64,000 nucleotides of DNA from Methylotenera sp. (GTDB taxonomy: Bacteria > Pseudomonadota > Gammaproteobacteria > Burkholderiales > Methylophilaceae): the NCBI GenBank assembly GCA_013141075.1, contig JABFRQ010000006.1:62001-126000 (forward strand). Reading direction: 5' to 3'. The translations under genes and the position numbers were made by a program. Each line of letters opens with the position of its first letter. The first letter of the stretch is position 1. A model generated the notes under the pieces. That model worked only from the letters and a program-made list of their open reading frames with translations. It had not been told where the DNA came from and did not search any database. Below are positions 47,537 to 51,598 of the stretch, one piece after another.

Positions 47537-48790
47537 ATGTTGAGCAACAGGGGTGTTAAATATATATTTTCACTGGCCATTATCGCGATAACGGCTACTT
47601 TTTCAATGACCAGTCAGGCGACGCCTGCATTCGCAAGGCAGATGGGTCAAGCTTGTTTGTCGTGCCACTTTCAACATTTCCCTACGCTGAATGCGCACGG
47701 TCAAAAATTTAAAGCTGGTGGCTACACTGAGATGGGTAAGCAAGGCACATTAAAAGGTGAGGGTCTTTCGCTCCCTTCAACGTTGAATGCTAGCTTATTT
47801 ACAAAAATTCGTTATCAAACTACTAATGGGTCTGATTTGCCTGGCACTAGTACAGCGGGTAGTGGTCAGCTTCAGTTTCCTGATGAGTTCGCACTTTTGT
47901 TTGGTGGCCGAATTTCAGACAACATCGGCTTTATGTTAGAAGGCCAGCTAGCCAATGGTGCTGCACCATTTTTAGCAGGCTTCAAAATGCCATTTATGTA
48001 TGATGTTAAAGGCACAAAAGTTGGCGTTATTCCATACACGACTGATGCACTTGGCGCTGCGTACGGGTTTGAGTTATTAAGTACGGGTGCAGTACGTAAT
48101 ATTCGCACAATGGAGCACAGGAACGAGAGTTCTGCGCAACAATACATCGGCACGGCAACAGCAGCAATGGGTGTGGCTTTCGTGGCATGGAATCCTGACT
48201 ACTTTGTAAACGTTTCTAAATGGTCGCCAAATAACGCAGCTGTTTCAGATGGTTTAGCCAATGGCAACCCAAGCTCAACGTATGTTCGCGCTGCTTACAC
48301 GCCTACCTTGGGTACATGGGAAACCGCAATTGGTGGACAGTATTGGGGTGGGCATTCAAACGTGGGTGACGTAAACGATTTGGTTACGCCTGTTGATACT
48401 AAAGCTTGGGCGATTGATGCACAAGCACAAGGTTCAGTAATGAACTTGCCACTTGGCGTATATTTTAGCCATGCCAATGCTAAAGGCTCACCAGCTGGTG
48501 GACAAGTAAACTTGTTTAATGGCAATGTAAATGATAAGCGCGCCACCGCTATTTCTGCTGAGTTAGGCGTTGTGCCAAACAAGGCAACCATTATGCTTGC
48601 TTACCGTAATGGCGATAACGGCAAAGCCACTAATAGTAGTGACAATGCAGTATCAATAGGTGCTACTTACTCAATAGCACAAAACGTGCAATTGCAGTTT
48701 CAGCACAGTAACCGTACGCAAGCTGGTTATGAAGGTACTGCTACTGGTGGCGATAAGCTAACTACCTTTATGCTGTCATCAGGGTTTTAA
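47537..48790 (+). CDS. Cyc2-like outer-membrane fused monoheme cytochrome c / beta-barrel porin
   Basis: Signal peptide then TPAFARQMGQACLSCHFQHFPTLNAHGQKFKAGGY (one CXXCH) followed by a barrel-like region ending in SSGF. Confidence 0.75.
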   Translation: MLSNRGVKYIFSLAIIAITATFSMTSQATPAFARQMGQACLSCHFQHFPTLNAHGQKFKAGGYTEMGKQGTLKGEGLSLPSTLNASLFTKIRYQTTNGSDLPGTSTAGSGQLQFPDEFALLFGGRISDNIGFMLEGQLANGAAPFLAGFKMPFMYDVKGTKVGVIPYTTDALGAAYGFELLSTGAVRNIRTMEHRNESSAQQYIGTATAAMGVAFVAWNPDYFVNVSKWSPNNAAVSDGLANGNPSSTYVRAAYTPTLGTWETAIGGQYWGGHSNVGDVNDLVTPVDTKAWAIDAQAQGSVMNLPLGVYFSHANAKGSPAGGQVNLFNGNVNDKRATAISAELGVVPNKATIMLAYRNGDNGKATNSSDNAVSIGATYSIAQNVQLQFQHSNRTQAGYEGTATGGDKLTTFMLSSGF

Positions 48791-48799
48791 GCTAACTTT

Positions 48800-48828
48800 A
48801 AATAGAGGGCAATTGAGCCCTCTATTTA
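48800..48828 (+). terminator. Hairpin after Cyc2-like gene
   Basis: AAATAGAGGGCAATTGAGCCCTCTATTT. Confidence 0.8.
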
Positions 48829-48891
48829 TTACTTAAATTATTACTTAAACCAGACAGAATTTAAAAATTTACTAGAGATTAGGAATATCTA

Positions 48892-49533
48892 ATGACTAAG
48901 CTTCAATCCACATTGCAACAAGCCGTTGGTTTATTAACTTTAGCTTTAATGGTGTCACCGTCATATGCTAGCGATGCCACGCGTAGTGATCACGAGTGGC
49001 AAGAAAAAATCAATTTGTGTACCAGTTGCCATACGGTAGATGGTAATAGCGCAACGCCAGACTACCCTAAGTTATCAGGCTTACATACTGACTATATTGT
49101 TAAGCAGCTTACTGACTTTAAAGCAGGAAAGCGTACAAGCTTGTTTATGGGGCCAATAATTACACAGATTGAAGAAAAAGAGTTCAAGGCTTTGGCTGAA
49201 TACTTTAGCGCTAAAAAGCGTGTGCCAGAAGTTGCAGTAGCCTCAGAGTTAGCGGCGCAAGGTAAAAAGATATTTGAGAGCGGCTTTGTTGGCAGAGTAG
49301 ATGCATGCTCTAAGTGTCATGGAAACGAAGGCGAAGGTACTAAAACGTATCCGCGTCTAAATGGTCAGCATTCAAAGTATATTGTTTCGCAGCTGCAAAA
49401 CCTTAAAAGTGGCGCACGCAGTAACGATAACAATGAAGAAATGCGCAAAGTGGCTAAACAGTTGAGCGAGCCCGAGATGAAAGCGGTTGCTGAATATATC
49501 GCTAGCTTGAAAGAAGAAGAGCCGCAGGAATAA
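48892..49533 (+). CDS. Diheme cytochrome c (c4-like)
   Basis: Signal peptide; two CXXCH motifs (CTSCHT, CSKCHG) in duplicated c-type domains. Confidence 0.9.
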   Translation: MTKLQSTLQQAVGLLTLALMVSPSYASDATRSDHEWQEKINLCTSCHTVDGNSATPDYPKLSGLHTDYIVKQLTDFKAGKRTSLFMGPIITQIEEKEFKALAEYFSAKKRVPEVAVASELAAQGKKIFESGFVGRVDACSKCHGNEGEGTKTYPRLNGQHSKYIVSQLQNLKSGARSNDNNEEMRKVAKQLSEPEMKAVAEYIASLKEEEPQE

Positions 49534-49591: not shown

Positions 49592-50584
49592 GTGAAAGCA
49601 TTAACAAAATTAGGCAAGTTTAGTTTAACTGGCGCATTACTACTTTTAATTTCAGGCTGCGCTAGCTTGCCATCTATGCCTAAAGTTGCAGATCTTTTAC
49701 CTACCCAAGACATTCATGTAGAAGTGCCAGATAGGCCAGCAACCATGGCTTTGCAGCGTACTGGAAAAGATATAGTTTTGCTTGTGCCAGACTATATTGA
49801 CACACGCGCAAATAAAAAATCTCGCCGAGTTGGCGGCATTAGTACTACTGTGGTGAACATGTATGGCGATGAGTTTTTCTTAGATCAAGAAATTACCACT
49901 TTATTAAGCGCTGCCGTAAGAAAGCAATTAACTAATAGCGGGTTTAAAGTGGTTACACAGGCAACTTCGGCTTATGATTTTGAGCTCATTGGCGCCATTG
50001 GCAATTTTTCACTGAATATTGCTGACCGTGATAAGCTCAATATTGCGGTAGAAACAACGGTAATGGACGGCAAAACAGGTAAAGTTTTATGGTCTGGCAT
50101 TATCTCTGAAATATCTGATAGATTTGCAGGCGTATCAGGCAATACACGTAGCTCTATTGAGGAATATCTTGGCAATGGCGTGGCGGAATTTTCTGTTAAA
50201 ACATCTGCTTCAATTAAAGAGAATTTAGCAGGTTCATACCCGTTAACCATGAAAGTTGGACAATCTAAAACAGTCTCATCTGTGCCCGGCGTTACAACCT
50301 TGCAAGCAGTGGTTGATTTGGAGTCTAAGCCAGAATTGGCTGTTGCGGATAGTCCAATTGCTAGCACACAAGTGGGCGTTGGGCATTTTTCAGTGACGAC
50401 TTTTCCTGCTCGTGCAAAAGTGTATGTTAATGACGTATATTATGGAATGTCGCCCTTGAAATTGGCTTTTGACCCAAGTATATATGCACTACGTTTTGAG
50501 CTTGAAGGCTATAAAGCGGTGACAGAAAAAGTTTCTGTACGTCGTGGAGAAACAACTGAGCTTGAAATTAAATTCGCTAAATAA
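49592..50584 (+). CDS. Lipoprotein with C-terminal PEGA domain
   Basis: Lipobox LISGC; SVTTFPARAKVYVNDVYYGMSPLKLAFDPSIYALRFELEGYK. Confidence 0.8.
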   Translation: MKALTKLGKFSLTGALLLLISGCASLPSMPKVADLLPTQDIHVEVPDRPATMALQRTGKDIVLLVPDYIDTRANKKSRRVGGISTTVVNMYGDEFFLDQEITTLLSAAVRKQLTNSGFKVVTQATSAYDFELIGAIGNFSLNIADRDKLNIAVETTVMDGKTGKVLWSGIISEISDRFAGVSGNTRSSIEEYLGNGVAEFSVKTSASIKENLAGSYPLTMKVGQSKTVSSVPGVTTLQAVVDLESKPELAVADSPIASTQVGVGHFSVTTFPARAKVYVNDVYYGMSPLKLAFDPSIYALRFELEGYKAVTEKVSVRRGETTELEIKFAK

Positions 50585-51535: not shown

Positions 51536-51598
51536 GTCATTGCGAGCATAGCGCGGCAATCTGAAAGTATTAGATTGCCGCGCTATGCTCGCAATGAC
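51536..51598. repeat. Perfect 27-bp inverted repeat GTCATTGCGAGCATAGCGCGGCAATCT-N9-AGATTGCCGCGCTATGCTCGCAATGAC
   Basis: Read directly; between convergent gpx-like and ppsR genes. Confidence 0.95.

Follow-up and report, generated by a model that had tools for sequence, protein, structure and literature searches.

Could a methylotrophic bacterium draw electrons from dissolved iron by means of a small set of acquired genes? The question is raised by a cytochrome-porin gene and its neighbors in the window, the whole stretch of 64,000 nucleotides of Methylotenera sp. DNA that was analysed. We consider it fairly probable that the locus is a horizontally acquired iron-oxidation cassette, composed of cyc2 of the Cluster 1 type, c4 and a PEGA lipoprotein gene, and integrated into the chromosome of a methylotrophic Methylophilaceae bacterium. 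The original prediction described a cyc2 and c4 pair. The two genes are adjacent as described, but the third gene of the unit, encoding the PEGA lipoprotein, and the Cluster 1 type of the Cyc2 had been overlooked. The features of the locus are as follows.

47537..48790, + strand: Cyc2 of the Cluster 1 type, a predicted secreted outer-membrane monoheme cytochrome/porin fusion of 417 aa (motif, homologues, tree, barrel model).
47624..47689, + strand: heme-attachment region PAFARQM GQA CLSCH FQHF PTL, residues 30–51 (alignment of 38 members).
About 48799..48829, + strand: strong attenuator- or terminator-like hairpin between cyc2 and c4, with a 12-bp stem, -19.2 kcal/mol, z = -5.25 relative to shuffled sequences.
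48892..49533, + strand: secreted diheme cytochrome c4 (Cyc1-like) of 213 aa with two CXXCH motifs (Cytochrom_C, c4 matches in the PDB, tree).
49592..50584, + strand: Cyc2-linked PEGA-domain lipoprotein of 330 aa, with a GTG start, lipobox ISGC and a C-terminal PEGA domain (PEGA, 1.7e-13).

The open reading frame at 47537–48790 begins with an ATG codon, and its product has a hydrophobic N-terminal stretch ending in ...MTSQA, judged by eye to be a leader, and a terminal phenylalanine. The only CXXCH motif of the 417-residue protein occupies residues 40–44, behind the leader. The coordinates and sequence match the description in the original prediction. Cyc2 proteins are defined by a signal peptide, one CXXCH, an upstream AXPXFAR[Q/K][T/Y] motif, PXL four residues downstream of CXXCH, a length of at least 365 residues and a 16-strand porin (Keffer et al. 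2021, PMC8406198). The window protein exceeds this length, and its motif string is ATPAFARQM-GQA-CLSCH-FQHF-PTL, in which PTL follows CLSCH-FQHF. Eight of the nine positions of the upstream motif agree with the definition, and the last is M instead of T or Y. The same position is occupied by T in 92, V in 16, M in three and Q in two of the related motif-bearing sequences, and it is therefore not strict in the clade of the window Cyc2. Residues R34, Q35, C40, C43, H44, P49 and L51 are invariant across the 38 aligned members, and the spacing of the heme motif is that of the Chlorobium ferrooxidans homologue (L045).

The AlphaFold model of the protein, calculated with 31 homologues as input, is a porin barrel (pLDDT 79.7, pTM 0.80), in agreement with the barrel of 16 strands that had been expected. 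Fifteen strands of the model are at least eight residues long, and we counted shorter ones as the sixteenth. The heme segment is poorly resolved, with pLDDT below 50. A Foldseek search with the model matched porins from the PDB, including OprP (2o4v) at 3e-9, a structure that the published Cyc2 model likewise lists among its homologues. The porin part of the open reading frame has a weak Pfam match to Porin_4, under the cut-off (E = 0.0016). Searches of the 417-residue protein sequence against Pfam, NCBIfam and the PDB yielded no Cyc2 assignment, so that membership in the family rests on motif, tree and fold.

Homologues were collected from one genome per species, and 80 loci that match most or all of the window protein, far above chance, were retained. 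These loci are from Gallionella, Sideroxydans, Ca. Ferrigenium straubiae, Ca. Gallionella acididurans and Chlorobium ferrooxidans DSM 13031, and also from groundwater MAGs with the labels Nitrospirae, Nitrospinota and Deltaproteobacteria; the homologues of Gallionella, Sideroxydans, Ca. F. straubiae and C. ferrooxidans are full-length. The top match, 65% identical, comes from a Burkholderiales MAG (L017), and identities to the Gallionellaceae and Chlorobium proteins are about 37–44%. In a tree of 120 rows, the window Cyc2 lies inside a clade with Gallionellaceae and C. ferrooxidans, nearest to L017, G468 (L098/L164), G200 (L116/L165), L018 and L021 (SH-aLRT 97 and 99). This clade is split from a distant Cyc2-like type of about 460 residues with SH-aLRT of 97 and 100.

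Published classifications place the Cyc2 proteins of Gallionellaceae and C. ferrooxidans in Cluster 1 (PMC7029218; PMC10734462), a member of which, from Mariprofundus ferrooxydans PV-1, oxidises Fe(II) (PMC8406198). Of the Cyc2 types, Cluster 1 has the strongest support for iron oxidation. The anchors of our tree were named Gallionellaceae and C. ferrooxidans, and the Cluster 1 assignment rests on these two and not on Mariprofundus or other Zetaproteobacteria. Judged from tree position and full-length homology, the window protein belongs to the Cyc2 type of Gallionella, Sideroxydans and Chlorobium ferrooxidans, published as Cluster 1, and not to the distant type. The resemblance to Cyc2 noted in the original prediction is upheld by the porin fold and by the placement among the Cyc2 of neutrophilic iron oxidisers, away from soluble cytochromes, and indirectly by the motif.

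Nitrospinota and a deltaproteobacterial MAG encode, close to Cyc2, a second and very divergent cytochrome-porin-like protein (L044:11043-12374, L046:10856-12253 and L027:4659-5948). It contains FARKHEIACMLCHSTWPRLNEFG in L044 and L046, and FARQYGASCRLCHAAYPRLNSFG in L027.

The intergenic hairpin and the secreted diheme cytochrome that had been predicted behind cyc2 were both found. The tail of the hairpin, TTTATTACTT, is not a pure run of T, and for this reason a simple terminator scan did not report the hairpin at 48799–48829. The cytochrome matches Cytochrom_C of Pfam at 8.4e-20, and a phmmer search against the PDB aligned it over residues 37–206 to solved cytochromes c4, with values down to 1.5e-33; the match to 1h1o (CYTOCHROME C-552) has a value of 4e-25. 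Like cytochromes c4, it is secreted and has two cytochrome c domains of about 90 residues, each with a CXXCH. In the c4 tree, the window protein joins the cyc2-linked c4 of other lineages (SH-aLRT 95) and is separate both from the second c4 of the host and from the c4 encoded beside the distant Cyc2 type. The adjacency of cyc2 and c4 is kept in Gallionellaceae, Nitrosomonadales, Rubrivivax, gammaproteobacterial MAGs, G468 and G200. The relatives of the cassette have a c4 of the same clade after cyc2, and mostly a second diheme cytochrome gene too, which is absent at the window locus. In three related loci (L017:1108-3280, L164:234-2398 and L165:2361-4468), genes of a two-component system, with a histidine kinase and a response regulator, lie upstream of cyc2 in divergent orientation; the window locus lacks this system.

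The PEGA lipoprotein gene begins 58 bp after the end of c4 and, by its genomic distribution, appears to belong to the cyc2–c4 cassette. Counting the window, 22 loci from several phyla have a lipoprotein gene of this kind downstream of cyc2 and in the same orientation; none was found anywhere else within the flanks read around cyc2 loci. It is present downstream in 18 of the 64 loci with at least 2.5 kb of downstream sequence. We scanned 400 genomes of the order for strong lipoprotein matches (E < 1e-70) and found them in 13, all of which are among the 20 genomes that encode a full-length Cyc2 of the window type (naive hypergeometric value 9e-20). Ten of the 13 belong to Gallionellaceae (f25), and independent support therefore comes mainly from three separate families, f1 (Methylophilaceae), f15 and f38, and from loci outside Pseudomonadota. 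In the lipoprotein tree, the window protein groups with those of L017, L164 and L165 (99), as in the cyc2 tree. Within the genus, one of 52 genomes has the lipoprotein.

Each of these three patterns, namely the position 3' of cyc2 in several phyla, the confinement of strong matches to genomes with window-type Cyc2, and the agreement of the trees for the group of the window, argues against the lipoprotein being a hitch-hiking bystander to a functional unit of cyc2 and c4 alone. Such a bystander would fit the many Gallionella loci in which Cyc2 of the window type has no adjoining lipoprotein gene, and the six f37 genomes that, together with G499, have this Cyc2 and no lipoprotein match. It would also fit the location of the Gallionellaceae gene (L227–L234), which is away from cyc2 and recurs at a site close to coaBC and rppH. 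On balance, we regard a bystander role as somewhat unlikely.

The lipoprotein was modelled with a pTM of 0.57 as a PEGA domain and an N-terminal domain resembling DUF330/PqiC, FlgT, CsgG and PelC. Several of these proteins assemble into rings or serve as docks at the outer membrane. In the present analysis, we define Cyc2-linked PEGA lipoproteins as a class by a lipobox, a DUF330/CsgG-like N-terminal domain, a PEGA domain and a Cyc2-bearing genome, all of which apply to the window protein. Among open-access papers, we found none on Cyc2 together with PEGA or on a PEGA domain in Sideroxydans. The irc genes of Sideroxydans encode two cytochromes c, a hypothetical inner-membrane protein and a cytochrome b. 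We considered the lipoprotein as a part of this cluster and rejected the assignment: the irc gene list lacks such a gene and the Gallionellaceae copy is near coaBC, so the lipoprotein is probably not in irc. We tentatively suggest, as a possibility short of an expectation, that the lipoprotein works as a hitherto unrecognised component of the Cluster 1 Cyc2 system, in the role of an outer-membrane assembly or docking factor, and that cyc2, c4 and the lipoprotein gene form a mobile kit that gives heterotrophs such as methylotrophs Fe(II)-driven energy.

The host is a methylotroph, as had been supposed: it is a member of Methylophilaceae, its genome encodes three PQQ alcohol dehydrogenases, and the window contains tetrahydromethanopterin genes (mch, 7.5e-120). 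A MoxR/vWA cluster in the window looks like mxaRSACKL, with the MoxR part recognized by Pfam. The genome also encodes a second c4 and two heme-copper oxidases, which we read as aa3-type and cbb3-type from their neighboring genes. No match to RuBisCO was found in the genome, which is about 90% complete, so that its absence is not final.

Cyc2 of the window type is rare in the family. Among 187 Methylophilaceae genomes, 24 have only the distant Cyc2 type (loci L004–L016 and L128–L136), three have a full-length match of the Cluster 1 type, and the gene is well anchored in the window genome only. The other two full-length genes are on contigs of 2 kb (L002/L040, G055:C111) and 5 kb (L003, G023:C199), and their products nest beside a deltaproteobacterium and within Gallionella, respectively. 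Considering the short contigs and foreign tree positions, these are probably contaminant contigs in public genomes, and we set them aside as relatives from the family.

With two such precedents, the cassette itself could be iron-oxidiser DNA that was binned into a methylotroph assembly. However, it lies inside a 168-kb contig of an assembly with an estimated contamination of 0.02, and is flanked by mxaR on one side and gpx-ppsR-ppsA on the other. The mxaR gene is 83–97% identical in most genomes of the genus, and ppsA is 92–95% identical in those compared. The codon use of the cassette is at or slightly under the range of local genes. A binning artefact is therefore highly improbable, and the position on a long contig between genus-typical flanks indicates a real chromosomal acquisition in a methylotroph. 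The trees of cyc2, c4 and the lipoprotein are congruent; the three genes arrived together as a cassette. Neither a tRNA nor clear flanking repeats were seen around it as marks of insertion. In the relative L152 the mxaR flank continues into fabA-fabB, and about 520 kb separate mxaR from ppsR in G090, a genome on a single contig. With the flanks apart in relatives, no direct empty site could be demonstrated, and the cassette junction also marks a rearrangement. A perfect 27-bp inverted repeat, GTCATTGCGAGCATAGCGCGGCAATCT, is located right behind gpx at 51536–51598 of the window and is REP-like.

How might the cassette work? We propose that Cyc2 forms a barrel in the outer membrane, of about 16 strands, whose periplasmic opening is close to the single c-type heme. 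Dissolved Fe(II) would enter the Cyc2 pore and be oxidised, and the heme would take up the electron. As the putative direct partner, the diheme c4 would ferry it across the periplasm to one of the two oxidases, of the aa3 or the cbb3 type. The lipoprotein, probably anchored on the periplasmic side of the outer membrane, may aid Cyc2 assembly or the docking of c4. Since RuBisCO was not found, electrons from iron would be an energy supplement during C1 growth rather than a basis for autotrophy. Against this scheme stand the poorly resolved heme segment of the model, the lack of the second diheme cytochrome gene and of the two-component system of the related loci, and the case of Sideroxydans CL21, in which iron oxidation does not follow the expression of Cyc2 by itself (PMC12442390).

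Electrons could also flow outward at low oxygen: those from methanol or methylamine would leave the cell via c4 and Cyc2, with humics or Fe(III) outside as acceptors. A study of a humic bog proposed this direction for Methylotenera and Methylobacter that carry Cyc2 and porin-cytochrome genes (PMC6344600), and it would suit a host that oxidises C1 compounds via PQQ dehydrogenases. We nevertheless hold outward flow to be unlikely: the tested Cyc2 proteins oxidise Fe(II) (PMC8406198), a single heme in a narrow barrel is better fitted to dissolved Fe(II) than to solid acceptors, and the named relatives are mostly iron oxidisers. Alternatively, Cyc2 might serve protection or sensing, and not energy, by oxidising a soluble reductant at the cell surface, be it Fe(II) or another such as reduced humics or Mn(II). 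Cyc2 has been suggested as a possible Fe(II) sensor (PMC12442390), and the host is a C1 specialist in which RuBisCO was not detected. The retention of a dedicated c4 of the cassette clade and the presence of two terminal oxidases favor a respiratory path, which makes a purely protective or sensory role more unlikely still.

Cyc2 in Methylotenera MAGs was already reported (PMC6344600). Within the literature that we searched, two elements are new: the lipoprotein partner, and a Cyc2 of the Cluster 1 type whose gene is well anchored in a Methylophilaceae chromosome. If Fe(II) oxidation by the cassette is correct, a C1 heterotroph can gain extra electrons from dissolved iron; this would couple the cycling of methanol- or methane-derived carbon to iron oxidation and would show that the latter can be taken up with a small kit of genes. 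The lipoprotein is a new candidate component of the Cyc2 pathway, whose partners are otherwise poorly known. Cyc2 markers in methylotroph genomes call for caution, as they comprise two very distant classes and some are probably on contaminant contigs.

Comparison with known systems places each part of the cassette. The N-terminal domain of the PEGA lipoprotein has a predicted fold in common with CsgG, PelC, FlgT and PqiC/DUF330, which are lipoproteins or periplasmic proteins; in contrast to them, the window protein has an additional C-terminal PEGA domain, and its N-terminal part has no sequence family match.

The distant Cyc2-like type of other Methylophilaceae (L004–L016) has an N-terminus, PSFARQTG..C..CH, that resembles that of the window protein and, like it, a C-terminus of porin length, and several of its loci likewise have a c4 neighbor. 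However, the two types align over roughly the first 135 residues only, with 29–47% identity. The distant Cyc2 forms a separate clade (100), as does its c4 (98), and it is probably of Cluster 2 or 3.

With Cluster 1 Cyc2 of the M. ferrooxydans PV-1 type and of Gallionella, Sideroxydans and C. ferrooxidans, the window protein shares length, a single CXXCH, motif context and the porin barrel. It also shares full-length homology and the clade, a likeness established via Gallionellaceae and Chlorobium and not by direct comparison with PV-1. It differs in the M at the last motif position, in place of T or Y, and in its host, a methylotroph without detected RuBisCO.

In the rus operon of Acidithiobacillus ferrooxidans, the cyc2 product is of Cluster 2, whereas that of the window is of the Cluster 1 type, and the rusticyanin and cox genes have no counterpart downstream in the window, where the PEGA lipoprotein gene is found instead. 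The order of a cytochrome-porin gene followed by a diheme c4 gene, cyc2-cyc1 in A. ferrooxidans, is common to both.
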